DNA of 64,000 bases from Isoetes taiwanensis. Lineage: Eukaryota > Streptophyta > Lycopodiopsida > Isoetales > Isoetaceae. Below, piece after piece: positions 1 to 62,634 of this stretch; position 1 is the stretch's first letter, and every line of letters starts with the position of its first letter. The stretch covers positions 60,001 through 124,000 of the forward strand of contig JAJEKV010000084.1 in the NCBI GenBank assembly GCA_021234155.1, written 5' to 3'. The position numbers and the translations under genes are program-made. The notes under the pieces were generated by a model that saw nothing but the letters and a program-made list of their open reading frames with translations, made no database searches and was not told where the DNA came from.

Positions 1-717
1 TCGGCTAGCATATAGGATTTCAGCTCCTTCATCCTCGTCCTTTACAACTTTTCTTTGTTCCATCTCTGTGCGAGCAATTCTTTCTGCCTCTTCACGACTC
101 TTTGCTACATTTCTCACAAGAATTGCAATTTGCTCATAAGCAGAAAAAGCTCTTGAGATAGCTAATAATTCGGCTTCCTTTGAAAGTACGGCACCAGCAG
201 CTTTCAAATCAAATAATATCATATCTAAGGTTTGAAAAAACACTTCTAGATTATCACCTTCATGATACTTAAGACATCTTAGCTCTTTTTCCAAAACATC
301 AATCTGTGATGAGGACTTACTTTCATAATTCTTTAGAAGATACAACCACATATCTTGCGGAGATAAACCTTGTAATTTCAGCAAAATACTAGAGCCTACT
401 TTGCTACAAATGATACCTTTTGCTTCGTTAATCTTCGCTGGAGTAACTCCTGCTGTATCAGATGTTCCAGCCTTGCCTTCAGCCTTGCCTTTGGACTTAG
501 CCTTCTCTTTCTTGACTCCCTCGTCACTTATTTTCAGTTTCTCAAGTCTTGCCATCGCCTCTTGCAGTTCATCTGCTCCTTTTGGCGGCTTCACAATGTC
601 CCAAAGCCCCTCTGATTTCAGAACTCTCTTGATCTTGGCTTTCCACACTTGAAAGCCAGATCCACCACTATAGACCTCAACAGCATTCAACAGTGATGCT
701 CCAAAGCGGGTCGTCAT
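1..717 (-). CDS. Copia retrotransposon Gag polyprotein, N-terminal part (partial at window edge)
   Basis: An open frame of 239 codons runs from ATG at 717 to the window edge without a stop. The start follows the primer-binding site by 13 bases and is the first ATG. The protein begins MTTRFGASLLNAVEVYSGGS, then has a WKAKIKRVL...GLWDIV stretch, a lysine-rich segment of about 40 residues, and a region around residues 120-200 with LQGLSPQDMWLYLLKNYES and LEVFFQTLDMILFDLKAAGA. This is the arrangement of plant Copia Gag (UBN2/Retrotran_gag type): an N-terminal W-x-x-K region followed by a helical capsid-like domain. Capsid formation around the element RNA is the expected role. The zinc knuckle and protease would lie beyond the edge. 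Confidence 0.85.
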   Translation of the reverse strand, partial: MTTRFGASLLNAVEVYSGGSGFQVWKAKIKRVLKSEGLWDIVKPPKGADELQEAMARLEKLKISDEGVKKEKAKSKGKAEGKAGTSDTAGVTPAKINEAKGIICSKVGSSILLKLQGLSPQDMWLYLLKNYESKSSSQIDVLEKELRCLKYHEGDNLEVFFQTLDMILFDLKAAGAVLSKEAELLAISRAFSAYEQIAILVRNVAKSREEAERIARTEMEQRKVVKDEDEGAEILYASR

Positions 718-730
718 AATACACCAACTT

Positions 731-744
731 GGCTCTGATACCAA
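731..744 (-). other. Primer-binding site for tRNA-iMet
   Basis: On the minus strand the LTR end ...TTTCA is followed by TTGGTATCAGAGCC. TGGTATCAGAGC is the standard plant initiator-Met primer-binding site, complementary to the 3' end of the tRNA. It fixes the LTR boundary at 745. Confidence 0.9.
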
Positions 745-1257
745 TGAAAGCTTCTGTATATTTGTCCTGTCAGTACTTCAAACAATCATGCAGAACCAAT
801 ATAGCCAGATAAACCTGAGCTGCAATCCGGCTTATCTTACTGTCAGCGATTCGCTGCTATCAAGCAATTCCGGGTAGAAAACCCAGAGCAAATAACAACC
901 CAGCAACAAGCAATCCAGACTACCCAACAACAAGAAATCCAGACTAGAATAAGTCCGGGCAACTAACCTCAGTTTTTAGAAACATCAACTGGCTTCGGCA
1001 GCCCAGATAGTCTTAACCCAACCTCAGATGAAACACAACTATGGCGGGATTCGTGCCTCAAATCTCCATCTAGTGTCGACAATCTGATCCGGCTGATTTA
1101 CGTAGCGGTCCGGCGATCTTCTCTTAGCGGTCCGTGCGTGCGGTCCGGCGTTTTCACACGGTGCGGTCGTGGCTTTTCCTTTTTATAGCCTGGCTTTGTC
1201 GGTTAGAATAGTCTATGCTTGCCACGTGCAATATTAATCTAAAAAACTATTGCAACA
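745..1257 (-). repeat. 5' LTR of the Copia element (about 513 bp)
   Basis: The inner end is fixed by the primer-binding site. The outer end is placed at the TGTTGC that reads on the minus strand from 1257, giving TG...CA ends. A TATAAAA box lies at 1187-1180 (minus), in the right place for the LTR promoter, followed by a GC-rich segment with repeated CGGACCG words. The outer boundary is less certain than the inner one. Confidence 0.65.
1180..1187 (-). promoter_or_regulatory. TATA box of the Copia LTR
   Basis: CTATAAAAAGG on the minus strand, about 440 bases upstream of the inner LTR end. It is the only good TATA box in this LTR and lies on the strand of transcription. Confidence 0.6.
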
Positions 1258-2253
1258 TATTATTTCGTTCTCACTATGGTGACATGATATTTTCAACAAG
1301 ATCTCCATGCTGACTCAAGGTGACTAGAGGGCCACTGCCCTTATTCGACTTAACCCACTGGAAAGTGAACCCCACTCCACGGGTGTCGAGCCCATGCCTT
1401 ACCCACACTCAGTGGCAAGCCATTAGACCTAGTCCACAATGATCCCCGGTAGGCCTTACACATCAGAGGGATCGTTCAAGAGTCAGAACACGAACCTCCT
1501 TATAAGCCAGTCTGGCCCCTTCACCCACAAACAGGTGTGGTTCTTGTACACAGGCCGAAATCTAGTAATGCACTAAGAGGAACTAGCTAGGAGCATCAAC
1601 TACTAAGCTTTAAGTCTCTACCCCCCTTCCCAATACAATGAGTCCACAGAATTCATCCGTCCATCACATCATCATAGAACTAAAGAATAAGAACTAATCT
1701 ATATCATAGAGTTAGGTTCTTTAGTTAGGGTCAATCTAGGGATCTGCTTGGCTACTAAGAGTAATTTAATAGGCTAAACCTATTGGTTCGATGGCTGGAA
1801 TACGGTTTAGGCTATTAAATCGACTAAATACCTGATCCCTGGTTCACTCCTCTTGATCCGAAGGCGTCCATGTCGCTGCTCTGCTTGTGGATGCGGTCGG
1901 AAGGCGAATCTGACGAGCTAGGGCGCACGGGCAAATCTTGGGAGTTGGATTTGACTCCTCAGGCGCGCGAACTGGAGCTCGGAAGGTTCGTGGACGGAAA
2001 GGGAAGAATTAGGGTTTGGTTACCTTACATAGGTTCTCAGTTAGGTTTAGGGTTTCCATGACCCTTGGTCTGCCTTTAATGGGTTAAAGGTTTAAAGTGC
2101 GCACATTGCTAAGTGTGCGCACCCTTGCAAGTTGCCCCCTAGGGCGCCCTTGCTTGGTTACACGTCGGCGTACACGTCGTTTGAATGGCGTGTACGCGTG
2201 ACGGTGCAGTACGCTATACGTCTTGGGACCGTATATCGTACTGGAACGTCACA
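1258..2253 (-). repeat. Truncated LTR, family 'TGTGACG' (copy 1)
   Basis: The minus strand begins at 2253 with TGTGACGTTCCAG, the same start as the solo LTR at 41378. The internal blocks match the other two copies: a TTGGGAAGGGGGGTAGAGAC block (reverse complement near 1620-1640) and a CCGGGGATC...CTAGG block near 1430-1450. The far end is missing; similarity stops where the Copia LTR begins at 1257. No coding potential is supported here; the 63-codon plus ORF at 1870 is incidental. Confidence 0.65.
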
Positions 2254-5943: not shown

Positions 5944-7485
5944 TCCTTGGATGGATGGCCACAATGTTGTTTTGACATTCGTTATCGCAACATCCCTAGA
6001 ATATTCTTTCATCACAAACAAAGTCGGATTTCCTCAAACCGGCAACTCCGAGTATTTTTCCTACGTATTAATTAACTTAGCAGAAGCGGAAAAAGCCTAG
6101 GTCACACACCGGAAAAGCTCTTATCTGACCTAAATGTTGGTGCCTGGAAGAAGTTCGTTCTCACAAACTTTTGGTTTTAAAATTACCAAAAAAAGGCGAA
6201 ATTTTGAGGTGGTCAAAATTTCGGTTTTAAAATTACCATGCTTCTTTTATTGTTGGTTTCACAAGAAAAGAGAGTAGGTACTACGTAATGCATGCCTGAA
6301 AAAGATTCTGGCGTATAATTTTTCGAGGCGGCTCCACCAGACGAGGCGCATGCACATGCCTGGAAAAGATTCCGGCGTATAATTTTTCGAGGCGTGCATT
6401 ACGGGACGTAATGAACGGTTGGCCGAAATTACGTCATTCTAGGCCGACACGTGGCATCCAGAACATTCCTTCTTCTTGGCTATGGCAGAGGGCGCCAGGC
6501 TATTGCGGAGGACGGCAGGCTATGGCAAGGTTTTTCAAAGGATCGTATTCATAGATTTAGAACAGATTGGTCGCCCGGATCAGAGGACCAGAGCAGAAAA
6601 ATAGGGAAGCCAATGGAGTGAGGACCAGAATAAGGTCTGTGCCTTGATCCTCAACAATCCAACCTCGGCAGAAGAAATCCGGCACCAAACCGGCACGAAG
6701 AAATTTGGCAGAACAAATCCGGCTCCAACTGGGTCATGAAGGTCATGAAGTTCGAAAATCTGCACTTTTCCTCCAAAAAATGTCAATCCTCCATAGAACT
6801 CGCCCCTATTCCTCTGTTTCTAATTTATCTGTTTCTTCCCCTTCCTTTTCTTCCTCCGCCTCTATCTATAGCTCTAATTCCGATCTACAGCTTCCGCCAT
6901 AGCCACAAGCTTCAGCTTCCGCCATAGCCACAAGCTTGAATAGCTTTATCTTTCTTACCTGCTCCCCTGAAGTTGCAGGATGAAGCTCGTAGGTCACAGG
7001 TGGCGCCGCTCCGCAAGAGCCGGAGCACGATTACATCGTATAATTTTAAAGGAATAATGCAGTAATTTCGGCCAACTGTTCATTACGTATGCCGATTTAG
7101 CAAAAAAAGTGGCTAAGTAAGCTGCATAATGTATAAATCTCGGCCGTTTGTTGTGGGCATATCCTGAAAGATGTCCTAAACCTAGAATCATGACCGCACA
7201 CTTAAAAACCTATTTCCAAAGTACCAAACGTATAAAAATACAAAGGAAACCTAAATCAAATGACCAATAAATCATGGCGCACTTCAAAATATTCTAGGCA
7301 TGAAATATATGTGGAAATATATGCGAAACAAGAAATATAACAATTGAAACTTAAATAGTGCTAGAAATATATGCTACACAGAAAATTTAAGCAAGAGAAA
7401 CCATGTGCATGATATTATGCATCGAACAATTAACTGCTAAAATCCAAACAACCAAAACCAAATGGAACCGAGCTTGATCTACACT
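5944..7485. other. Upstream region of the 4.3-5.9 kb gene, with short direct repeats
   Basis: No gene recognised. A ~38-bp direct repeat containing GGCGTATAATTTTTCGAGGCG occurs near 6294 and 6358. A 24-bp tandem repeat with CTTCCGCCATAGCCACAAG lies at about 6890-6937. The plus ORFs at 5833-6100 overlap exon 1 of the minus gene in antisense and are shadows. Confidence 0.4.
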
Positions 7486-7660
<175 letters not shown>

Positions 7661-7747
7661 CCCAAGGCATGATATTATGCCACCTAACACTTACGCACCT
7701 CAAATTCAAGCAAGTAAAACTAACTGGGATCAAATATAAGTTACACA

Positions 7748-7787
7748 TAGATAGATAGATAGGTAGGTAGGTAGGTAGGTAGGTAGC
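7748..7787. repeat. Short GATA/GGTA compound microsatellite
   Basis: A few GATA units followed by about six GGTA units, 90 bases downstream of the long GATA array. One unit type seems to have converted to the other by a single A-to-G change. Confidence 0.95.
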
Positions 7788-20900: not shown

Positions 20901-23303
20901 ATGCTCTGCATGCATGTTTCAGCTCGTGCATCAGAACAAGCATTCAGGAAAATTGGAGAATCATGCATTCAGACATGCATTGCCATGATTTCTGCAAAAG
21001 TAAAGCTAGGGCATGGGGAGGAAGCTTTAGATTTTTATACCAGAATGCAACTTGCAGGCCTGAGTGAAAGCAAATCTCTTCATTTAGTCGTCCTAAGAGC
21101 ATGTGTTCTGGAAGCTTCCCTGGCACACGGAAGGCTCCTCCATGAACGGGTCATGAAAACAGGACTGGACAATGTCATTGGTGCCACACTTGTTGAAATG
21201 TATGCTACATGTGGTAGTCTGAAAGAAGCACAAGATCTGTTTGAGAAGTTTTTGAACCCAGATGTGGTGCTATGGGGGTCAATGCTTGCAGGATATGTTC
21301 AACATGGAAAAGCTGATTTTGCATTACAATGTTTTGGCAAAATGCTCATCCAAGGTATATATCCCAATAAAACCATTTACTTGTGTATTTTAAAAGCCTC
21401 TACTAGCAGTGGAGCCATAAGTCATGGAAGACTCGTCCATAATATAATCATTAAATGTGGCCTTACTGATACTGTGATTTTAAGCAGCTTAATTGGAATG
21501 TATGTTAAATCCAAAAATATAGAGGAGGCATATAACTTGTTTGAAGTACTCCCCAAAAGGAGTATTGTGTCATGGAATACAATAATAGCAGCTTATCTCC
21601 AACTTGGGCATGGAATTCTTGCTTTAGAACTTTATGAAGATATGCAAGAAGAAGTGAAGCCAGATAAAATTACATTTCTTAGTGTCTTAAAAGCGTGTAG
21701 CACTACAGGTGGGGGCATGCAAGGTAGACTTATACACAGTCAAATTATATGCAATGGACTAGCTGCAGATATTTTCATTGGAAGTGCTCTGGTTGATATG
21801 TATGCCAAGTGCAGTAGTCTTTTGGAAGCATGCAAAGTCTTCAGGCATTTGCCAAGTGCAGATGTGGTTTTATGGGGGTCATTGATAACAGGATATGCTC
21901 AGCAAGGAGAAGGCAATTATGCTGTAGAGCTCTTCGACAACATGCAGCAATATGGTATACAACCAAGTAAAGTTTCATTTTTGAGTGTTCTGAAGGCGTG
22001 TGGCAGTATGAGAAGCATAGAGCAAGGCAGGCTTGTGCATTCTCAAATTTTGGGGATAAAGGCCTTGCTAGACATTGAGATTACTAATAGTCTTGTTGAT
22101 ATGTATGGAAAATCTGGAAGTCTTGCGGAAGCACATATGATGTTTGAGAAGGCACCACATAGAAGTATTATTACATGGAATGCATTAATTGCAGGATGTG
22201 CTGAGCATGGATACAGCCTCCTTGTTCAACAACATTATGACAAGATGCAACAGGCCGGGGTGGAGCCAAACAAAGTCACATATTTGAGTATCTTGAAAGC
22301 ATGTACGAAGAGCAGATCCCTCAATTGGGGACACTGTATACATAAACAGGTTGCGTTGTGTGGACTTATAAAAGATGTTGTTATTGGCAGCACTCTTGTT
22401 GATATGTATGCGAAATGTGGAAGCTTAGAGGAAGCACAAGAAGTCTTTGATAGTATGCTCACTCGAAATGTGGTATCATGGAATGCGATTATTGCAGGCT
22501 ATGCTGACAATGAACAAGGAGTTCCAGCTTTAGAACTTTTTGAGAAGATGCAAGAAATGGCTATGAAGCCAGACAAAGTTACATTCTTGAGTATTTTAAA
22601 AGCATGCGCAAGCCTTGGAGCAATAGAGCAGGGTAGAGCAATACATTTTCAGATAATTAGAAACAGATTTCTCTTGGGCGTTATGGTTGGTAGTGCTGTT
22701 GTAGATATGTATGCTAAATGTGGAAGCATGGAAGAGGCTTGTATAGTATTTGAAAGCTTACCAGTTCAAAATGTGATAACATGGGGAGCCATGATCGAAG
22801 GCTATGCTCAGAAGGGTGATGCTGAGATGGCATGGCGTTGTCTTCATGACATGCATCAGCGGGGAATTAAAGCAGATGAGGTCACATTTAGTAGTGCCCT
22901 TGCTGCATGCAGTAATACTGGCCTTGTGGATGAGGGGCGTTGGTACATTAAATCCATGAGAACAAACCATGGGCTTACACCAGATGTTCGTCATTATACC
23001 TGCATGGCCGATCTTTTGAGCCGTGCAGGCTGTTTATATGAGGCAGAAACTTTGCTTGAAGGAAGTGATGAACCAGATATTCTTGGTTGGACATCTTTGC
23101 TTAATTCTTGTAAAGTATATCAGAATGTAGATCTCGCAAGGAGATGCTTTAAAAAGGTTATTTATTTGGATCCCAATTTTGCTGGTGGTTATGTACTTAT
23201 GTCTAACATTTTCTCAGATGCTCATTTGAGGCATGATGTGCCAAACCTACAAAACTCAGGAGCAAGTATTGCAGGTCTATGGATGAAATTTTGGGAAGCT
23301 TAA
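20901..23303 (+). CDS. PLS-class pentatricopeptide repeat protein with E domain (organellar RNA processing/editing type)
   Basis: One exon of 800 codons; ATG at 20901 is the first after an in-frame TAA at 20877. The PPR motifs repeat as triplets with a strikingly regular ~101-residue period. Segments of the type VVLWGSLITGY/VVSWNAIIAGY...FEKM...PDKVTFLSILKAC occur near residues 115, 216, 316, 417, 518 and 619, each followed by HSQI/HKQV, LVDMYAKCGSLEEA and VF. Residues ~690-772 form an E-type domain (TPDVRHYTCMADLLSRAG, PDILGWTSLLNSCK, GYVLMSNIFSDA). Such proteins bind RNA in plastids or mitochondria and guide C-to-U editing. The KKPG/E+ part is missing and the tail LQNSGASIAGLWMKFWEA is out of frame: the next frame reads RSMDEILGSLNDY then a stop, a typical late PPR segment. 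So the C-terminus has a deletion plus frameshift. No clear transit peptide is visible. Confidence 0.85.
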   Translation: MLCMHVSARASEQAFRKIGESCIQTCIAMISAKVKLGHGEEALDFYTRMQLAGLSESKSLHLVVLRACVLEASLAHGRLLHERVMKTGLDNVIGATLVEMYATCGSLKEAQDLFEKFLNPDVVLWGSMLAGYVQHGKADFALQCFGKMLIQGIYPNKTIYLCILKASTSSGAISHGRLVHNIIIKCGLTDTVILSSLIGMYVKSKNIEEAYNLFEVLPKRSIVSWNTIIAAYLQLGHGILALELYEDMQEEVKPDKITFLSVLKACSTTGGGMQGRLIHSQIICNGLAADIFIGSALVDMYAKCSSLLEACKVFRHLPSADVVLWGSLITGYAQQGEGNYAVELFDNMQQYGIQPSKVSFLSVLKACGSMRSIEQGRLVHSQILGIKALLDIEITNSLVDMYGKSGSLAEAHMMFEKAPHRSIITWNALIAGCAEHGYSLLVQQHYDKMQQAGVEPNKVTYLSILKACTKSRSLNWGHCIHKQVALCGLIKDVVIGSTLVDMYAKCGSLEEAQEVFDSMLTRNVVSWNAIIAGYADNEQGVPALELFEKMQEMAMKPDKVTFLSILKACASLGAIEQGRAIHFQIIRNRFLLGVMVGSAVVDMYAKCGSMEEACIVFESLPVQNVITWGAMIEGYAQKGDAEMAWRCLHDMHQRGIKADEVTFSSALAACSNTGLVDEGRWYIKSMRTNHGLTPDVRHYTCMADLLSRAGCLYEAETLLEGSDEPDILGWTSLLNSCKVYQNVDLARRCFKKVIYLDPNFAGGYVLMSNIFSDAHLRHDVPNLQNSGASIAGLWMKFWEA

Positions 23304-34341: not shown

Positions 34342-36526
34342 TTAGTAACACTCCTCATAGTATGGACCAAGAAGATCTTTCAGTGTTACTCCATGAAAGA
34401 CCGCAGCTGATTCTCTGGAAAAGGTTCCATTGCGTTTACTATGCCACTCTTCTTGGTCTGAATCAGAGCCTCCTGTGACCTCATCTGCGATGTCACTCTC
34501 ACTGGCTGTTTCCCATTCAGACTCATCATCTCCCTCCTGACTGCAATTAGTGTGTTCATCGTTGTCGTCGTTTTCATCATCATCATATTGGATGCCTCTA
34601 TGTTTTGAAACTGCTTCAGAGAACAACCAGGTTGCCTGCATCTGTCTCTTAAGAAGGCGTTCCACAGACTCGGTAATTTTGTTTTTCTTAAGTTCTAAGT
34701 GAGTCTTAGAAGCCTGGGAACATTCATTGATGAACATGATAGCATCAAGTAGGCTCTCCTTGGCATAACCAAGACAGTCATATGCCTGTGCCCTTCTCCA
34801 TAGACTCTTGGCATGCCTGTTGACAGGTTTGTGGAGACATAGAGCCTGTGTTGTGTCACTAATTGTAGCCTTGGGGTTCCCTAAAAGAAGATGACATTGT
34901 GCTCTATTACTGTATAAAGTCACCCTTTCCTTTTTTGCTTTGATTGGACACAACTCCAACGCTTCTGTATATTTAGAACATGCGCCAACAACGTCTCCTG
35001 CAGAGAATTTTGCATTTCCTTCAAGTTTGACTACAAGAGAAGCTGCTAGCTTAATTTGTAGATCTTCTCTGGACAAGCTTTTCTCCCACTTTTTCCTTGT
35101 GTGGAAGGCATTTATTTCATAAAGGAGCTTTGAATTTGGTGAAAGACATGCAGAGTCTTGCAGATATGTATGTACTAGAAGATCTCCTATGTTCTTATAA
35201 ACACCAAACCCTGGGAGTTCTGACAGATCCAAAGGAGTTGCAACAGCTTTGTCAAAGACCTGATCAAAGACAAAAGTAAATTTTAATCAAAAGGAGCTGA
35301 AGAAATACAAACTCCGTTTTCAAAGGCTATAGCACTAACCTTATATCTAGTGTTTGGATCTTGCACCAACCATACAAGGCAGTCCAATGCCATGTACTGC
35401 CAGTCATCAGAGGACCGAGCAATGTTGCACAGGACTTCAATGATACTTGGATACTCTGACACCATCAATCTGCCAGACCTCTGGTGACAAATTGTCCTTA
35501 ATAGACCCACCAGAAGGTGAGTTCTCATTCACAAGTCCTCCCCACATGCTGGAAATTTTAAACAAGAAATCTGGCTTGCAGGTCATAGATAGAAACTCTT
35601 CTTTAAATGCAAAACAGTTAATAAGCTGCAGGGACCAACACTGCAACTGGCTTGCCCAAGCTTCTGCATTACGGGACTCCATCTCTAGCCCGCCTACTCC
35701 ACGCGTGAGAAGATCACAATGATAAGTGAGCCTCCTATCCACAAATTGATAGAAATGTGTGTAAACTAATTCTGGAGAAGAAGATGCAAGCTCCATTGCT
35801 AATTCAAGGATCTCTTTGTATGCTGCAACATATGGAAAGGTTTTATCATATGTTGCTAAATGCCCTAAAGCACGCACAGCAACTCTCTGCTCTACCCATG
35901 TTAGTCTTCCTCTTAGCAGCTCAAGCAATGCTGGTATAACTCCTGCAGCAATCGCCCTTTCAGCAAAATCTTCGACCACCATTGTGTATGAACCAATGAT
36001 GTGAGCAGCATAGTAGGGAATGTATATATTTTGATCTTTGGCTAACCACCGCCTATTTGTGAGGCCCTTCCATATCAACGCAGCCATGCATTCAAATATA
36101 CCCAGATCAATAAATTCAGGATCGCTTGGTTGCACCATAGCCGTATTCCATAGCCCACTTACTGGAATGACCTGACCTTCTTCATCCTCATTCGGAAGGT
36201 CTTTGAAAAACTTTGCAATGCTTACACGGCGTTTTGCTGGGTTAATGTCCTTCATTAAGCAGAAAAAACATCCAGGGTATGGACAATCGACATGGGCTTT
36301 GTCCGTCATATTAAAATAAGGGCTTTGGTAGTAAATCAGATCAAACACCAAGACCTAGAGAAACCATCCGAATGTAGAAACTAATTCGGAGAAATGCTAA
36401 GAAAGAGGCAAATTCACCTACCTTGCATAAGTCCGGGTCATAGGAAAAACCATTAAAGGATTTAGATCCACGCCAAAGTCCCATAAGAAAACAGCAGGTC
36501 GAACCCCAAGCTGAAGAAAGCAGCAT
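34342..36526 (-). CDS. ARM-repeat plus TPR protein (Arabidopsis AT5G37290-like), one internal frameshift
   Basis: Exons (minus): 36526-36422, 36354-35340 and 35259-34342, ending in TAA; introns have GTAGGT/CTCTAG and GTTAGT/GATCAG borders and all joins are phase 0. Exon 1 ends GSKSFNGFSYDPDLCK. Exon 2 has a Cys-rich CPYPGCFFC motif, then RRWLAKDQNIYIPYYAAHII GSYT, VIPALLELLRGRLTWVEQRV and WASQLQCWSLQLINCFAFKE (armadillo-like), then RSSDDWQYMALDCLVWLVQD. Exon 3 carries a TPR domain (EGNAKFSAGDVVGACSKYTE, VTLYSNRAQCHLLLGNPKAT, KSLWRRAQAYDCLGYAKESL) and an acidic tail. This ARM-TPR fusion is conserved in land plants; its molecular role is poorly known, probably chaperone or scaffold like. At about 35505-35511 (GGTGGGTC) one extra G, or two missing bases, breaks the frame. 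Either the copy is dying or the assembly has an error. Confidence 0.85.
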
Positions 36527-47034: not shown

Positions 47035-50000
47035 TTATCTTTGCCAATCAAGAACAACCTCATCTGCAGTATCTATGCCCTTAAAGATAAACAACCTCCT
47101 TCTCTTCCGGATTGACCATAAAAGCCACCGCATGCGAGATGAAAAGCTTCGTTTCCGTTGTTTGGGCCAAGCATCGGGATAGATAGCAAGCAAAATTTGG
47201 CGGGCTAGATCGAGACGATGCCAAAAAGGGTCAACAACCAAGACCATGCCCGCCAAGAAGCCTCTCACACAAGAAAAACAATGCTCAATACTCTCAACCC
47301 TTTGTTTGGCATAAAGGGCGAGCTCAAATCCGATTATCCATTTTATGGACTAACCGTTGACTCGAGGCATCTATGGATCACTTGCCACCACAAAACTACT
47401 ACTTTGGGGTGAAGCGGCTTATCCCATACCCATATCCAAACACTTTTCCATTGTGGGTGAGGGACACTGAAGATGCCATCTATTAGATGGAGGCGGGATT
47501 TCGTAATGCACAAGCAATTTATACACGAAGACACAAACCGCCTCGGGCCGGATATCCCGATGGCAACCCCATATGACTACCTCAATCAGTGGACCGTAAT
47601 CCCGTGGCAACAATGCAAAGAATATGATTCCGTGATTACTCATCCCATCGCATACAACAAGAACTTTGTTCTAAATGCTTCCCATGACATGAGATGATGA
47701 TGGACTCATACCAAGCTGCAATAGTATTGATACCACCGCTACCCATCGTCGTTGTGTCTTTGGATGAACAACCACACTTAGAGGCACATTCTCCTCGAGT
47801 GTCCCGCAAAGGAATCCACCAAATGGAGTGGACAACCAAGACATGCCTCGGGATTAATATGGAAAAGAGACCGACAAAGTCCCAAGCATAAAAGCAACCC
47901 CTTTAGAAAGGGAGAAGCATTAGGATACGGATGCATATGATAAAGCAAAGCCCAAGGAAGGAGGGGCTTAATGGAAGCCTTATGAAATGGGAGACAATGC
48001 TGAATCGACTGCACCAACAACCTCGGGCCGGAGAATCATCCTTACCAATGAAAATCCTCCAAATGAACTTTGATATCATCACCTTGCTTTGGAGGTGAAA
48101 ATCCAACATACCAAGACCACCACCGCCTTAGGTCTAATGCATTTTAAGCCCAAGCTACCTTGACCAATCGCCTCCTAACTCATTTCCACCCCAAATAAAA
48201 TTTCGACGATCGCACAATCTCCTCCATCTTACAACTGCATGAGCTAGTAAAGCGATTTCCATGTAGACATGAGTATTACTAAGAACACATTTAGCCACAG
48301 TGATTCTACCGGGCATGGACAATTTAGCTGTATTCCACCAAAACAAGTGCTTTTGCAACCCACTAATGATTTCGTCCCAAGCATCTGAAGCAGAGACATG
48401 AATTCCAACTGGGATACCAAGCAACTTTGTGGTATTGCCATGCGAAAGAATCTTCCAAGGATAGTCCAAAATACAGGGGAGGATGGGACCGTCCAACGTC
48501 CACAAAAGCCAGTACATTTTTGCCACCCTACAAGAACTCCCGATGCTAAGGAGAATGTGTCTAATAATAGCTTAGCATTACGAAGATTCTCAGCCTTCGC
48601 AATTAGGAACAAAAAGTGTCATCGGCATATTGGTTACATACCTCTTGAGAACCATCGTCCATTGGGAGGCCTTGAATAACGCCATCTTGGGTAGCCACGG
48701 AGAAGAGCTGGGACAAGACTTACGCCACAATTGTGAAAAAGCAAGGGTGCTAAGGGACAACCCCAATCAATTCCTCTACCCACTACAAAAATATCCGATG
48801 GCTCGCCTCGAAAAGGACATGATCTCTGATGTATGGAGCTTCATGACATTCCTTGTGAATGACTCCCCAAACCCAAGTGCAAGAAGACACTTCTCCAAGA
48901 AGCCCCAATCAACACTATCGTAGGCTTTAGCAAAATCAAGCTTAAGATACACCGCTCTATGACCCCCAGAACCGGGCCCAATATATTCCTTCATATCAAA
49001 GCAACCACGTTGTTGAGAATACAACGGCGAGGGAGAAAGCCGTTGTGTTGACGAGATAGCGTCGCCCAAGATGTCTCGGACTCTTTCTCGCCAATGTCTT
49101 AGCAAAGATCTTGTACCTGAGAGGAAAGCAATGTAATAGGTCGCCAATGTCGAAATAGTCTTGGGTTCCTTGTTCTTTGGAATGAGAGAGATACAACCCA
49201 GATTCAAAATCTTATCAAGGCTCCTAAATCTCTCAAACTCACAAAAGGCATCATATATGTCATCCTCCAACCAGGTCCCAAAGACTTCGAAAGAATTCAA
49301 TAGGAAAGCCATCAAGACCGGGCATTTATCCCTTTTCAAGAGAGCCACAATGCTTTTAAGTCCTCCTTCACAATATTAGACTCAAGAAGCAACCTCTCGC
49401 TTCTTAAACAATGCGACGCACCTTAGTCAACACGACCAATTGCATGTCCTTCCGAAAGGGCAATGGGTGTCGTGCAAAGAATGAAGAAAAGTGATGATGA
49501 AGATACTTGCTTAAGATTCACGGATCGGAGATAAGAGCACCATCTGGCAGCACCAAAGAATGTATAGAAGTGGCGAAGTTTCCTTCTTCTTGCAAAATGC
49601 AAAAAAGAACCGGGTACATCTATCACCGCCCTTGAACCACTGCAACCCCGCCTTCACTTTGGCTTGATAGCTTTTTTACGGTTCTATAGCCTTGATCTGA
49701 GATAATAACTCCTTTTCTCGACTCCATTAGTATGGCCCGCAGCGAGAGTACTTCTAATTCCCGGTACAATGCGGTCAATAGCCCTCTAGCTTCAGCAGCT
49801 CGACTCTCCCATATTCTTTTGCAAATGACTTCCCTTTGCGGACAACGGCGCAACAACCCCCGAACATGCCCCTCTGAGGGAGAGAAGGCCCGAGACCAAG
49901 CCCGACTACAGCCAACTTTGAACTCATCATCCTCCAGGTACTTGCAATTAAGCTTAAAGTAGGTCCTGGTAGGTCGATGACAATTAGCCACATCATTAGT

Positions 50001-50712
50001 TAGAAGTTGTGGATTATGATCAGACACAGAGCTATCCAGAAGGTTTGAGCGACGAAAATCCGCTAGCCGAGCAGCTGCACAAGTATTAAAGTATCCTCTA
50101 TCATGCCTTGCATAAGCTCTGCCAGCTCCTGTCCAACCATTACACCACGTAAAGGACTGATCACCATCAATCTCCATAAGCTGACCATCATGTAAAAGGC
50201 GTAGCCATTGCTCTCGCTCGAATCCTTGCACCACTTCTTCGAGCCGCGACCACTTCTATCTCTTTCCAACTTCGACCATATTGAAGTCGCCAACGAGCAA
50301 CCATGTAACATTTTGTCCAAGCTGGAGAACTTTACTCCTCAGAGTTGCCCACAAAGCACCACGCTGACGAGGTCTATTATGAGCATACACATTTATCAAA
50401 CCCCATTCTTGGCCCTTATCTTTCCATTTGATTATTATCCACCGCCTAGAACCTATCTGTTTGAGTAAAAGTGACATCCACAGATGACTTCCATGCAGTA
50501 AGCACACCAGCCTTAGATGCATCAGCAGCAGACACCAAGACATTATAGTCTCGTCCAAATACATTAGCTACTTTATGTACATCACCGCGGCGGCATTTAT
50601 GCTCTTGGAGGCAACAAAAGGTCGTAGAAAACTTAGACAGGTAAAGAGACAACCTGCTTCTTTTACTTGGGGAAGAAGCCACTCCCCTCACATTCCAAGA
50701 CAACAGGTTCAT
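47035..50712 (-). pseudogene. LINE ORF2: APE endonuclease, reverse transcriptase, zf-RVT (frameshifted)
   Basis: Pieces in order on the minus strand: MNLLSWNVRGVASSPSKRSR with LQEHKC (endonuclease start, 50712); INVYAHNRPRQRGALWATLR and WLLVGDFNMVE (50440-50260); SDHNPQLL (endonuclease end, ~50030); LNLGCISLIPKNKEPKTIST and AVYLKLDFAKAYDSVDWGFL (reverse transcriptase, 49220-48930); QYADDT (catalytic box, ~48625); WKSVWIWVWDKPLHPKVVVL (zf-RVT, 47450). At least five frame changes separate them, so no active protein can be made. Its ATG overlaps the ORF1 stop (ATGA), suggesting coupled re-initiation in the parent. The intact enzyme nicks target DNA and copies element RNA. Confidence 0.9.
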
Positions 50713-51854
50713 GTGGCCAAAATATTATGCTCCACCTCCATACCAATAGAGCCAGCCTCAACCATGTCCATCTCGCATGGTTCTGAAGGGAGGTCAGCCC
50801 ACCTCGTCCTGGAAATTGGCAAGGGGGAGCCTCCTCTCTGTTCCACCCTTCCATTGTTTTGTTCAGCACTTGGTGAGGGAGAGCCTCCTCTCTGCTCTAC
50901 CCCCCCATTATTTTGTTGGGTAACTGGCAAGGGAGAGCCTCCTCTCTGCTCCACCCTTCCATGCAAATTATCAGAATCGCTCATGACATGTGACACATGT
51001 TGACTAGCCTTATTGCGTGCAGCTCTTTTCCAATTAACATTTGTCCATCCCTCTTGGGCATTTTCATGATGTTCTTGAACACTTTCATGCCGCTCTTGCA
51101 ATTCCTGGATCTTCTGTAACTTAGCCCTAGCATCCTCTTCAAAAGCGGGAGTATGCACAATCTTCTGTGGGATAGTGGTTTTAGCAGCAGATGGAGTAGC
51201 AACAACAGAGGTCGCAGTAGCATTGGCAGAAGGGACAACAGAGGGTAATGGAGACACAACAGAGGTAGGAGGCACAGAGGAAGAAGGGACCATTGCAGGG
51301 CGATCTCTTTTAGCACGAAAATTTGCAAATAAAGCAAGTTGAGGAAATAAATCAGCAAGCTGAGGGCCATTGAGCAACTGCAAAGCATACTTCAGAAAGA
51401 TAGGGCCACTTTTCACAACCACACAGTCAGGAAGACCGCGACCAGAAGGAAGAGAAACACAAATTTTAGCACCATCAACAATAGAATGGGCCAGATGAGT
51501 ACCCAGACCATTAGCAATACTGATAAGAAACTCCGGCACCAAGAGATCAGGAGGAAGATTAGGAATAGAAAACCAACATGGCATCCTAAGAGCAGGAGTC
51601 ATACCAGGAGAAAATCCAGGCGAGTAAGGCTGGTACAAAATATAATCACTCCACATTGGGTCCACACCACGTGCCACCAGTTGCTCAACAGCCACAGCAT
51701 CATCAAAAACGATCAAAAAGAACTTCTTATCCAGCATCTTTAAAGTACGATAAGGTGGCAACCCTAATCTCCGAAGATGACCAGTCAACCAATAGCCAAG
51801 CTTCCTACTATCAAGAAATGCTCCAGTATATTGACCAACCACACTAAACAACAA
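50709..51854 (-). CDS. LINE ORF1 protein with DUF4283 (RNA-binding), 5'-truncated
   Basis: Open for about 380 codons to TGA at 50709. The true start is lost because the insertion begins inside the frame. Residues ~1-125 match DUF4283, the RNA-binding-like domain of plant L1 ORF1: GYWLTGHLRRLGLPPYRTLK, KFFLIVFDDAVAVEQLVARG, PYSPGFSPG and RMPCWFSIPNLPPDLLVPE. Then follow a Ser/Thr/Val/Pro-rich linker, a helical EDARAKLQKIQELQERHESV segment, and three ~20-residue repeats VEQRGGSPLPV...QNNG encoded by a 60-bp minisatellite (50820-50970). It ends TRWADLPSEP. No zinc knuckle is visible. Confidence 0.8.
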   Translation of the reverse strand: MLFSVVGQYTGAFLDSRKLGYWLTGHLRRLGLPPYRTLKMLDKKFFLIVFDDAVAVEQLVARGVDPMWSDYILYQPYSPGFSPGMTPALRMPCWFSIPNLPPDLLVPEFLISIANGLGTHLAHSIVDGAKICVSLPSGRGLPDCVVVKSGPIFLKYALQLLNGPQLADLFPQLALFANFRAKRDRPAMVPSSSVPPTSVVSPLPSVVPSANATATSVVATPSAAKTTIPQKIVHTPAFEEDARAKLQKIQELQERHESVQEHHENAQEGWTNVNWKRAARNKASQHVSHVMSDSDNLHGRVEQRGGSPLPVTQQNNGGVEQRGGSPSPSAEQNNGRVEQRGGSPLPISRTRWADLPSEPCEMDMVEAGSIGMEVEHNILAT

Positions 51855-51867
51855 CACGCAACAACAT
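51855..51867. repeat. LINE target-site duplication, right copy
   Basis: CACGCAACAACAT, exact match of 46783-46795. Confidence 0.95.
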
Positions 51868-53834: not shown

Positions 53835-56253
53835 TCATTTTTCCACCAGCATCCCCAAGGATATGAGAACCTTATTCCTTATATCCTGAGGTATTGTAAC
53901 TCTCGTTGTTTTACTTGGAATAGTTTTTGGAGTCCACGAGTACAATACGGTTTCAATGTCTAGCCAAAGATCAGGATCACTAGGATTTCTCCTCCACCTC
54001 TTTGTCCAACAATCTGAATATCTTTCTTTATCGGTGACATTAGTCAACTGGTGCACTGGACACCACCATTCCACACGCACCTTATTGAAGTTAACATCAC
54101 CTTCTTCTTTGCAAATATCTGAGATGGTGTATCCCAACCACACCGGATAGGTCTGTAAATCTGCTGGTTTTACTACCACAAATTGGTGGCACTCTACGTC
54201 AGTTGCTAGTTCATAAACATCTAGGCCTAGATATTTTGGTCTATCTTTCTTAGGACCAACATAGTGTTTGTCAGATTGAGGACGAGCATGGGCCTTAACA
54301 ATGCTACTAATAGTGCCATCATCTTCCTCAGCACCTGCTAATGTCTTCCACCTGCTTTTAGGGAGCCACCCTTCAGTCAATTCTTCTGAGGATGTGTCTA
54401 CCTCATCCAACAAGTTAATCACTTTCTTCTAGTAATCTATCAATGCATGATTAGTGTCATCAGAATTAGTTTGCCAATGCTTGATGTACTCATTGATGCC
54501 ATCCTGGGTCAATCCCACTTGCTTCACTTCTGTAGTAGGTTTTAGAGCTTTTGGTTGACCTGGAGGTATCATAGGCTTGCCATGCGCATCTCTATGCCAG
54601 ATTTCTGCCCCTCCTCTCCACTTCTCCTCTGAAGGTCGCATCTTCCATTGCATGATTGGAATCCCATCTCTCACCCAAAAAGTGAATTGAAGAGGTCTAG
54701 AATGGCCTTCCATGTCTTCAGTATAACCTTCCACAAAACTCTTCCAATCAGGCACCTCTTCTATGAGAGATCCTATAGGAGATGGAGTAGTGCATCCATG
54801 GAATATTTCTAGTAGCCTAGGAAAGTCGGTCACTGTCTGCTGTCTCAAAACATGACTATATTTTTCAAATAATGCATCCACATCCTCATGAGTATGTCCG
54901 GGCATTAGAAACCCCAAATTAACTCTTTCAAAAATGCCCACAGCTGTTAAGTAGGATAAGAAAGAAAACATCCACCTGTTCTTATTTTGGCCAGCACAGT
55001 TATCAAGTTGCAAGAGCAACCTTCTAGGCAGATCCCGAGGTTTTGCACGAGATGTTAAAGCTCCAACATGTTCATTAGGTCCATGCCTCCTAAACCTTGC
55101 CTTGCTAAACTTTTCAATATTATTCGGGTTTCCATCCAACAATGCACTATGTAGTGGCTGGCTAGCTGTAGGGTCTTGGAGGTAACCATTGTAACCTTTC
55201 TCATAGTTTCTTAAACACCTCATGATACTCCCAATATGAAAATCTAGACCATCACTCCACAACTCCAAACTGTAATGCCCATAGTAGGTTTGAGATTGGC
55301 CATGCAAGATTGCCTCAGTCATTGAAATCTGCAAAGGGTATGATCTTCCACAAGACTTTGGTATGTACTTGAATTGTGGAAGACAAGTCTTTTGCTGGTC
55401 CATCTTGTCATGTATAATACATAAATAGTTATTAAGGTCCTCCACATCCAATAAGTTGATCTACATGATAGTTGATCAGTCATATGGTCCTTCATGTGTT
55501 CCCTTATCTTAGCCCTTAGACTTGGTTGCACAGTCTTATCAAGAGTCTCCTTCAGCTTAGCACACAAATTGCACTTTGCAAAGTTGTTTGAAGTTGCTAT
55601 GGTCACATGCTTGAAATGCTTATTCCATAGCCTACTAAAACTGGGCTGGGATATAGAGGCTACTCCAAGTTCCCGAAACAATGCATTTATTTCCTCTAGT
55701 ATGCTCTTCTGGGTACAATGGGATGGCAATCTCTTCTCAACAACAACTCTACCCTGTTCATCCTTCTTATATGTGGCATGTTTTCTGCATTGAACTCCAC
55801 ATACGTTTCAAATATTTCCTTTGCAGCTATAGTCCTAGAGGTTGGTCTTTGCTGGTCAGTGTTCCCATGTAATGCAATTCTAGTTCCATTTTCATGTCTC
55901 TTTTGCCAGTTGTGCCAGGAAGAGGTTGGAATTCCATGTATAGCCATCCATGCTTTCGAACATATCCACTTTCCGTTCAATGGAAATCTTTTTTTCTTCG
56001 ATCTTTCATCCTGAATTGCATAGCCAAATATGGTGTACATGAAATTTCTCCTACTATCACACTTATGTTCTTGATATGTAGCTCTTGCTCCCACCAACTC
56101 CTCTATTGTGAACATTCTAACACAAGAGGCCCAACAACATTCACCTCCTCTAACCTTCATCATAGCTTCAGGAAGAAGAAGAAGAAGAAGAAGAAGAGAT
56201 TTTAACGTCACGCCACAAGGCAGCGTCCTATCGGACATGTGGAGAACAATCAT
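53835..56253 (-). pseudogene. DUF7869-like transposase-like protein (frameshifts and one TAG)
   Basis: The minus-strand order is 56253-55780 (CWASCVRMFTIEELVGARAT, MAIHGIPTSSWHNWQKRHEN), 55770-55460 after a frameshift (LPSHCTQKSILEEINALFRE, NFAKCNLCAKLKETLD), 55451-54429 after another, then an in-frame TAG at 54431-54429 and continuation to 53835. The core has three acidic clusters: IIHDKMDQQKT (residue 15 of the 340-codon part), LLLQLDNCAGQNKNR (150) and GHTHEDVDALFEKYS (186-190). Their spacing, and LDN followed by QNKN, is what I associate with DUF7869 proteins and would fit an RNase H-fold (DDE-like) enzyme. The part after the TAG (KKVINLLDEVDTSSEELTEG, EWWCPV, SWTPKTIPSKT) belongs to the same frame. 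Function is inferred only. Confidence 0.6.
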
Positions 56254-60012: not shown

Positions 60013-60530
60013 GAAGAAGTCGGCGAGTTGATCAGGTTTCTTGAAAAATTCGGTGGCGAATGAGCATGTAGGCGTTTCTTGAAAATAATAAAAATAAATA
60101 TTCGTGGATGTGCTTTAATAAGAAAATTAAGTTTTTAATTTGGAATGAGCGGGATAAGCGGTTAATATAGGCGGGATAATTGTAATTTAAAATCGGATAG
60201 CAATCTGACGGTTCAGATAATGCACCCATACGTATAAATTTGAATCGTGTCCCATAACATTGCATTCGAACATTGCAACTATATGGCGTCCGGAGGATCT
60301 GGCGCAGCGAGAGGTAGAGGGGGAGGGAGAGGCGCAGGGAGAGCTGGGCGACGGCCCAACACTCAGGAAATTCCTGAACAGGTCGCCAGCACTCAGGAAG
60401 TAGGTATTTATCTATGCTTATACTATTTCTTCTCGATTTCTACAGTTTCTGTGTTTTTTTTTTAAGTTTTGTCTAGTGTCTGTGTCGTTTTTTATCATTT
60501 TTCTACTGTCTCTGTGTTGTTTCTACCTTT

Positions 60531-60707
60531 TGTTGGAATGTTGGAGTATGTGTAATGGGCACACATGAAGAATGACTCAGTGGAGGAGTGCCGAAAGCCC
60601 ATCAATGGGCCGGTAGCTCAGTGGTAGAGTACTTGGCTTGCAAGCAAGAGGTCCTGGGTTCGATCCCCAGCCTGTCCACCCAATCATAGAAGGCTCATTT
60701 CTCAACA
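60531..60707 (+). repeat. TRIM 5' LTR
   Basis: 177 bp. The tRNA-like gene occupies positions 77-148 of the LTR. The 76 bases before it include GGGCACACATGAAGAATGAC; no TATA box is seen, so initiation may rest on the internal Pol III promoter. Confidence 0.96.
60607..60678 (+). tRNA. tRNA-Ala(TGC)-like gene inside the 5' LTR of the TRIM
   Basis: 72 bases fold as a cloverleaf: acceptor GGGCCGG/CCTGTCC (one G-T, one mismatch), TA, D arm GCTC-AGTGGTA-GAGT, anticodon arm CTTGG-CTTGCAA-GCAAG (TGC anticodon, U33, A37; the pair next to the loop is G-G), variable AGGTC, T arm CTGGG-TTCGATC-CCCAG, discriminator A. The A box TAGCTCAGTGG and B box GGTTCGATCCC fit the Pol III consensus. No T run follows directly, so termination would be downstream. 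The two mismatches suggest a tRNA-derived promoter rather than a working tRNA. Confidence 0.85.
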
Positions 60708-60720
60708 TGGTATCAGAGCC
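60708..60720 (+). other. TRIM primer-binding site (tRNA-iMet)
   Basis: TGGTATCAGAGCC directly after the LTR, complementary to initiator tRNA-Met, not to the embedded tRNA-Ala-like gene. Confidence 0.95.
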
Positions 60721-60888
60721 ATGGTCCCAAGTAAAGGGTGCTTAACCGCACCGGGATAGTCCCCAGTGGTGTAGGGGTGAGAATGAGCAAAGCTTGGCCA
60801 GTGGAAAGCCCAACTCCCGCAGTGGTGGAGTTGCCCGAGGAGGGGAGCATGTGGATTGTGGTGAAGGCTGGAATGGATTGGTGTGCCC

Positions 60889-60900
60889 ATTAAGGGGGAA
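60889..60900 (+). other. TRIM polypurine tract
   Basis: ATTAAGGGGGAA immediately upstream of the 3' LTR; expected primer for plus-strand synthesis. Confidence 0.85.
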
Positions 60901-61077
60901 TGTTGGAATGTTGGAGTATGTGTAATGGGCACACATGAAGAATGACTCAGTGGAGGAGTGCCGAAAGCCCATCAATGGGCCGGTAGCTCAGTGGTAGAGT
61001 ACTTGGCTTGCAAGCAAGAGGTCCTGGGTTCGATCCCCAGCCTGTCCACCCAATCATAGAAGGCTCATTTCTCAACA
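60901..61077 (+). repeat. TRIM 3' LTR
   Basis: Identical to the 5' LTR over all 177 bases. Confidence 0.96.
60977..61048 (+). tRNA. tRNA-Ala(TGC)-like gene inside the 3' LTR of the TRIM
   Basis: Exact copy of the one at 60607-60678, 370 bases downstream. Confidence 0.85.
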
Positions 61078-61297
61078 CCTTTTATATTGTTTATGTGTCA
61101 TTTCTATTGCTTTTACTACCTTGTTTTGTGTGTTTTTTGTTATAATCTTCTCCTGTACTCTGTGTTTTTTGTTATGTATTCTCCACTTCTTTGCACTTGT
61201 TTGTTTATAGTTTTGTTCTGTATTCTCCAGTTCTTTGGAGGACTTTTTTGTAGCCTAGTATGTCTCTTATAATATAGAGCGTCTGTAGGGCCTCTCT

Positions 61298-61432
61298 AAA
61301 AAACGCGCTCGGCGCGATTTATAATATAGAGTGTCTCTGATATGATTGTTTTTTGCTGTCTGTGATACTTGCATGTATACCATTTATGTTTTCCGTAGTA
61401 AGTCGTCTATCAAAACGCGCTCGGCGCAATTT
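61298..61432. repeat. GC-palindromes P5 and P6 (intron 1)
   Basis: P5 at 61298-61320 (AAACGCGCTCGGCGCGATTT) and P6 at 61412-61432 (AAACGCGCTCGGCGCAATTT). Both lie in intron 1, about 100 bases apart; each is followed by different sequence. Confidence 0.8.
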
Positions 61433-62634
61433 CATTACTCACCACATGATTGTAACTTTCAGGATCTTCTAAAAATGTGAAAAGAAAATCAAAGCCTGTT
61501 CAGGGTCACGGGACATCGGCACCGAAAAAACCAAGAATGGAGGAAGATGTTTCAGTTGCAGATTTGGCACACGTTGTGACCATGGACGATACCACATGAA
61601 TAATAAAGGCTCAGGTAGAGCCGCCATGTCCAGAAGAAGATCTACCAGAGGGCTCTGAATGGTTTGTGGAGATCTTCAAGACTAGCGGAAAGACAGATCT
61701 TATTTTCATGTCTAGAGTTAAGGAAACAGATCAAATGAAGAAACAAGGTATTTTGATCACATGCGAATAACAGGACGATTCATACTGTTCCGTATTACTT
61801 GAAGCGGGTCAGAAAAATAAAAAAGGATTAAAGAAGTTAATGCGCTGCAGTGCCAGTTCCTTTAAAGAGACAGCCCTAAAAACGGATGAGGCCGCAGATA
61901 ACCTCTTCAAATTTGGCTGGTCAGGTGGTGAACCATTGACACCAAAAAAAATATGTGAAGGTCTCTCAGCTGTGAGAAGAGCAATCAGTACAAGGCCGTC
62001 AGCTAGTGTGTACCTACAAGCTTTAAAAGAGAAGGAAGATGCAAGTTCTAGAGGTAGGAAAACAACAGACGCTCTACCCATTACAGATTTGACTAGTGAT
62101 GACGATAAGGCGAGACAGTTAGAGGGCATGAGCAAACTCAAGAAGTATGCTGACAAGTATCCATTGGGCCTTAACTTCACGCATCCAGTCCATGTCGACA
62201 GGCTTTTCAGGTCCACGAAGGCTATGTTTGTCAGCAGAAGATACGACAAGCAGCACGCAATGGAAATAGTCAACAGCATCATTGAAAACCCAGGGCAGGT
62301 GCCAATGCCGGCAGATGTGGCCTTTTGATATGAAGACGAAGAAGGTGTTGATATGGAATAAACTTGAAGATTTCATTGGCAACCTGGATATTCACTTCAT
62401 GATAATAGATGGCCAGCATCCAGTGGAGGCGCAGAAGGTTTTTATCAGTCAAGCACAAAAAACTGGAAATCAGTTATTCTATAGACTATACTCAGTCAGA
62501 AATTGCCGGTTCCTCAGTGGCTCAACAACAGCAGCAGAATTAGCCGAAATTAGCGCGCTACTGAATGACATGGGAAAGACATTCCTATACAAAAGGTATT
62601 TCATTTTCCCACACATAGCTAGTCTGGAACTTCC

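Follow-up and report, generated by a model that had tools for sequence, protein, structure and literature searches.

The stretch of DNA analysed here, called the window, comprises 64,000 nucleotides of Isoetes taiwanensis contig JAJEKV010000084.1 (assembly GCA_021234155.1, positions 60,001 to 124,000 of the forward strand), and all coordinates below are positions within it. The window features a single copy of a 547-bp terminal-repeat retrotransposon in miniature (TRIM) at 60531-61077, each long terminal repeat (LTR) of which carries a tRNA-like sequence. Repeat comparison determined that the 5' LTR (60531-60707) and the 3' LTR (60901-61077), both on the plus strand, are identical at 177 of 177 bases; each begins with TGTTGG and ends with CTCAACA, which gives the element TG...CA termini. 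The LTRs enclose a 193-bp interior (60708-60900). The interior starts, directly 3' of the 5' LTR, with a primer-binding site (PBS), TGGTATCAGAGC (60708-60719), which we take to be of the initiator tRNA-Met type, and it ends, directly 5' of the 3' LTR, with a polypurine tract (PPT), AAGGGGGAA (60892-60900). A target-site duplication, CCTTT, flanks the unit at 60526-60530 and 61078-61082. The original prediction of a small LTR element at 60526-61082 is thereby borne out in every part. Allowing at most one mismatch, TGGTATCAGAGC occurs at two sites in the window, both of them exact, where 0.23 are expected; at least two such sites were found in 4 of 100 shuffles. The sequence between PBS and PPT (60720-60891) is non-coding. 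The open reading frame (ORF) listing of the window contains no ORF of at least 150 aa inside the TRIM, the longest listed stop-to-stop frame that overlaps the interior is 89 aa on the minus strand, and a spurious frame crossing the LTR and the PBS gave no candidate in a search of the protein collection. A hammerhead ribozyme in the LTR, by which a Retrozyme is recognised, was not matched at the Rfam gathering threshold.

The identity of the LTRs over 177 sites bounds their divergence at roughly 1.7% (rule of three, computed by hand) and marks a young insertion. Recent or current activity had been predicted from this identity; the recent insertion stands, while current activity is not proven by it. 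Both LTRs of a new LTR-retrotransposon copy derive from one RNA, and the tRNA-like part was therefore in the LTR before the present insertion. The DNA around the TRIM has some features of its own. A 21-mer, AAAACGCGCTCGGCGCRATTT, is repeated beside it at 61300-61320 and 61412-61432 (20 of 21 bases alike). The TRIM could also be located in an intron of a speculative gene model on the plus strand (60283-61570; ATG at 60283, donor at 60404, acceptor end at 61462), which would give an open frame of 85 aa that is Gly/Arg-rich and then Lys-rich.

The tRNA-like sequence, with anticodon TGC, is located at 60607-60678 in the 5' LTR and at 60977-61048 in the 3' LTR, on the plus strand. Rfam model RF00005 (tRNA; gathering score 29) matches each copy with 62.3 bits (E=4.2e-11), and no further tRNA match in the window reaches this threshold. 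ARAGORN calls a tRNA-Ala(tgc) at 60606-60682 and at 60976-61052 and makes no other call in the 64 kb. The sequence contains an A box, TAGCTCAGTGG (60614-60624, plus strand), and a B box, GGTTCGATCCC (60657-60667, plus strand). Of the 21 cloverleaf pairs, 19 are standard; the acceptor stem has a C5:U67 mismatch and the anticodon stem a G30:G38 mismatch (residues are numbered by position within the 72 nt). The embedded tRNA-Ala(TGC) gene of the original prediction is thus upheld as a tRNA match by Rfam and ARAGORN, but not as a gene; "tRNA-like" is the safer term because the isolated 72 nt does not favour the cloverleaf.

The sequence features a G:U pair at position 3, which we take to be the alanine identity pair, and an A preceding the CCA position. 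Together with the acceptance of the sequence as a tRNA by ARAGORN and Rfam, this pair would suit a genuine tRNA-Ala gene that was duplicated locally with no transposon involved. Such an origin is hardly credible, given the two stem mismatches, the lack of a T run downstream within the LTR and the setting of the tRNA in 177-bp repeats with TG...CA ends, together with a PBS, a PPT and a 5-bp duplication that flanks the entire unit. Local duplication, which the original prediction had itself named as another possible origin, leaves this combination unexplained. Descent from either tRNA-Ala or tRNA-Cys was considered and neither was accepted, as a comparison with eight reference tRNAs ended in a tie, with 54 of 73 columns for each and scores of 33 and 31. 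Because Ala and Cys are equally close, the Ala label is based on the anticodon and not on descent. The anticodon TGC, the G:U pair and the A before the CCA position could also mean that the LTR yields a charged, usable tRNA-Ala, so that tRNA genes would spread with the element; Kojima 2024 (PMC10886601) describes a few families of related elements, named Helenus, that could encode a tRNA. This is very improbable here, as the sequence has the C5:U67 and G30:G38 mismatches and a weak cloverleaf, the tRNA-like part has no terminator behind it, the likeness to Ala is tied with that to Cys, and most Helenus tRNAs are judged non-functional in the same paper.

On reading of the sequence, the end of the embedded tRNA was found not to match the PBS, and the embedded tRNA is therefore not the primer; the same is described for Helenus (PMC10886601). 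Plasmid sequences searched by blastn with the LTR yielded 17 records, which matched at 76-84% identity, covered no more than 52% of the query and all lay around the tRNA-like part (query 52-166); these records are presumably bacterial tRNA genes. Exact LTR, tRNA and PBS patterns had 0 matches in prokaryote and viral contig collections, which contain very little plant DNA.

TRIMs with tRNA-derived sequence in the LTR were named Helenus by Kojima 2024 (PMC10886601), who places them beside Cassandra and Ajax under the term "TRIMp3" for TRIMs driven by RNA polymerase III. From Pucciniales fungi that paper describes 113 families, and it adds others from six animal phyla and a single one from a plant; the sole plant listed in its main text is the lycophyte Selaginella moellendorffii, whose Helenus-1_SMo features a 120-bp LTR, an 85-bp interior and 5-bp duplications. 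The claim that no well-described family carries a tRNA in its LTR is therefore overtaken by the published record. No further paper on tRNA-bearing TRIMs was found among the matches listed in the open-licence literature; a 2026 meeting report mentions the Helenus paper in its available text, and the words "Helenus" and "tRNA" were not found in the available text of a Cassandra paper (PMC10853983). The Isoetes element features tRNA-derived sequence in both LTRs, a PBS and a PPT at the interior ends, a length of 547 bp with no long coding frame (the screen by Kojima took TRIMs under 1000 bp) and a 5-bp target duplication, as described for the plant and fungal families. Its A box fits the published Helenus pattern TRGCY...YGG (as TAGCT..TGG) and its B box contains the published GGTTC. 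The best reading is that it is a further example of Helenus and not a new kind of element.

The element resembles Helenus-1_SMo in its lycophyte host, in its 5-bp duplications and in A and B boxes of the kind published for Helenus, and it differs in size, with a 177-bp LTR and a 193-bp interior; the two were compared by description only. The proposed analogy with Cassandra is supported by the LTR anatomy and the tRNA homology. Both are small LTR elements that carry an RNA polymerase III (Pol III) gene in the LTR as a promoter, and their total lengths are similar, with 565-860 bp for Cassandra (PMC10886601) and 547 bp here. Cassandra carries 5S rRNA sequence in its LTR, whereas the Isoetes LTR carries a tRNA and gives no 5S match at the Rfam gathering threshold; additionally, Cassandra RNA is reported to end within the 5S portion of the 3' LTR, whereas the LTR here has no TTTT. 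The Ajax TRIMs of nemerteans, as described, share a small-RNA promoter in the LTR and 5-bp duplications, but they are 5S-derived and found in animals. Short interspersed nuclear elements (SINEs) headed by a tRNA are likewise short, non-coding retroelements with a tRNA-derived Pol III promoter; they differ in lacking LTRs, a PBS and a PPT and in being mobilised by long interspersed nuclear elements (LINEs).

The window contains part of a Copia element as well. A Copia gag domain (PF14223) was found with 36.7 bits (E=3.8e-9; cut-off 27 bits), and an exact TGGTATCAGAGC precedes it at 743-732 on the minus strand. Window positions 1-1298 appear to hold the 5' end of this minus-strand element, cut by the window edge. 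A possible Copia LTR extends from about 1298 (TGTTGAAAAT) to about 746, with limits set by eye, and is followed by the PBS at 743-732 and the gag frame; no second LTR of this element was found in the window. The PBS is common to the TRIM and the window Copia element, and the TRIM has a 5-bp duplication, as would be expected of an element mobilised by Copia. Because of this duplication and of the Copia gag behind the same PBS, the helper of the TRIM is probably a Copia element. The window Copia element itself was considered as the direct helper and set aside, as it matches the TRIM over only 14 bases at the PBS and has no LTR or other interior homology to it. In the account of Kojima 2024 (PMC10886601), a Helenus and its Copia relative likewise have no LTR similarity.

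A possible Pol III start motif is the plus-strand CAA triplet at 60603-60605 (positions -4 to -2 before the tRNA-like part); it is weak evidence, since published counts place CAA within 10 bases upstream of 36-45% of angiosperm tDNAs. TTTT does not occur on the plus strand anywhere in the TRIM. The first T4 downstream is at 61080-61083, over the right copy of the duplication, and is a candidate stop for Pol III that the flank provides; it begins 473 nt from the start of the tRNA-like part, which itself is 471 nt from the element end. Since no TTTT lies between this start and the end, Pol III could run across the element and give a terminally redundant RNA. Two further properties were considered and rejected. 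Terminator avoidance as a selected trait is not supported, as the lack of TTTT is no greater than composition gives in shuffles and window stretches (counts below), and neither is a special fold of the predicted 471-nt RNA, as an equal or better fold is reached in 17 of 100 shuffles.

The element is quite likely a recently inserted Helenus-type TRIM, that is, a non-autonomous LTR retrotransposon whose LTR bears a tRNA-derived Pol III promoter. Pol III drive is plausible, and transcription from the tRNA-like promoter with mobilisation in trans by Copia is the probable mode. In the proposed cycle, TFIIIC would bind the A and B boxes of the 5' LTR and Pol III would initiate near the 5' end of the tRNA-like part, read through the 471 nt to the element end and stop at the flanking T run. 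The resulting RNA would carry the segment from the tRNA-like part to the LTR end at both of its ends, which would allow minus-strand transfer in reverse transcription. Priming would occur from an initiator-tRNA-Met-type primer at the PBS and also at the PPT, and reverse transcriptase, integrase and capsid would be supplied by a Copia element, giving the 5-bp duplication. The element may be present in more than one copy in the genome. A stronger version, in which the LTR Pol III promoter has no terminator of its own and relies for its stop on T runs at the insertion site, is improbable. If it were true, only insertions upstream of T runs would become good source copies (here a T4 begins three bases past the 3' LTR), and the flank-supplied stop would set the element apart from Cassandra, with its reported RNA end inside the 3' LTR.

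Several observations weigh against a Pol III-driven Helenus. The evidence comes from one copy, the transcript is a predicted one, and the TRIM has no homology to the window Copia element beyond the 14 bases at the PBS. With its mismatches left open, the cloverleaf has a free energy of -18.7 kcal/mol, whereas the minimum for the isolated 72 nt is -20.5 kcal/mol, and a fold as good as that of this isolated RNA, or better, is reached in 176 of 200 shuffles. Among shuffles of the 370-bp unit, 1541 of 2000 have no TTTT either, and the same holds for 9 of 37 stretches of the window with similar GC content and for 102 of 1249 with any GC content. A decayed, silent promoter would likewise be compatible with the missing T run downstream of the tRNA-like part. 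A single known copy would also suit transcription of the TRIM by RNA polymerase II (Pol II), with the tRNA-like part as a passenger left by a tRNA or SINE insertion into an ancestral LTR. The LTR contains TGACTCA and TGGGC, motifs that could serve Pol II, a role that we regard as weak support, and it contains no TATAAA, TATAA or AATAAA, which argues in the other direction. The passenger also fits poorly with a full-length tRNA-like sequence, kept in both LTRs with both boxes at consensus. An origin by SINE insertion into the LTR is proposed for such TRIMs in Kojima 2024 (PMC10886601), but a SINE-insertion scar sought around the tRNA-like part was rejected, as the flanks of 387 of 2000 shuffles are at least as similar as those observed and no flanking duplication marks a recent insertion. 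Transcription by Pol II with a passenger tRNA is thus rather unlikely, and the Helenus-type TRIM with a Pol III promoter is preferred.

As a Helenus, the element would be a second plant case beside the one listed in the main text of Kojima 2024 (PMC10886601). According to that paper, Pol III transcription is validated for Cassandra only and is unproven for Helenus; the young, identical LTRs and the nearly intact tRNA-like promoter would make the Isoetes element a good subject for testing Pol III use by tRNA-based TRIMs. Additionally, tRNA-bearing LTRs inflate tRNA gene counts: in Puccinia triticina, 133 of the 137 genes predicted as tRNA-Ala-TGC come from one Helenus family (PMC10886601). In the lycophyte Isoetes sinensis, a published annotation gives 8,975 tRNA genes; this count is a lead only, and tRNA-bearing LTRs are a cause worth checking.

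The remainder of the window holds genes and repeats. An 800-aa single-frame pentatricopeptide repeat (PPR) gene lies at 20901-23303 on the plus strand; its best identities are 31-46% among the 120 matches listed, and its top matches are from a conifer, ferns and the lycophyte Diphasiastrum. By its gene sequences the window is land-plant DNA. A plant ARM/TPR gene at 34342-36351 on the minus strand shows a frame change near 35510 relative to its Diphasiastrum relative, which may be an assembly error, an unusual splice or the mark of a pseudogene. This gene groups with one Diphasiastrum protein with support of 98/91 and 97/92 in two trees. A lineage call from it alone was rejected, as the branches are long, other rows (ferns among them) are nearer by path, and the highest identity, 68%, is to a protein that groups with conifers. 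LINE-like remains at 48776-51857 on the minus strand combine a weak reverse transcriptase match (PF00078, below cut-off) with DUF4283, and a DUF7869 protein at 54429-55451 on the minus strand (134.9 bits) is possibly transposon-related. A long, pure GATA microsatellite occupies 7484-7660, and a second GATA/GGTA run lies near 7745-7786.
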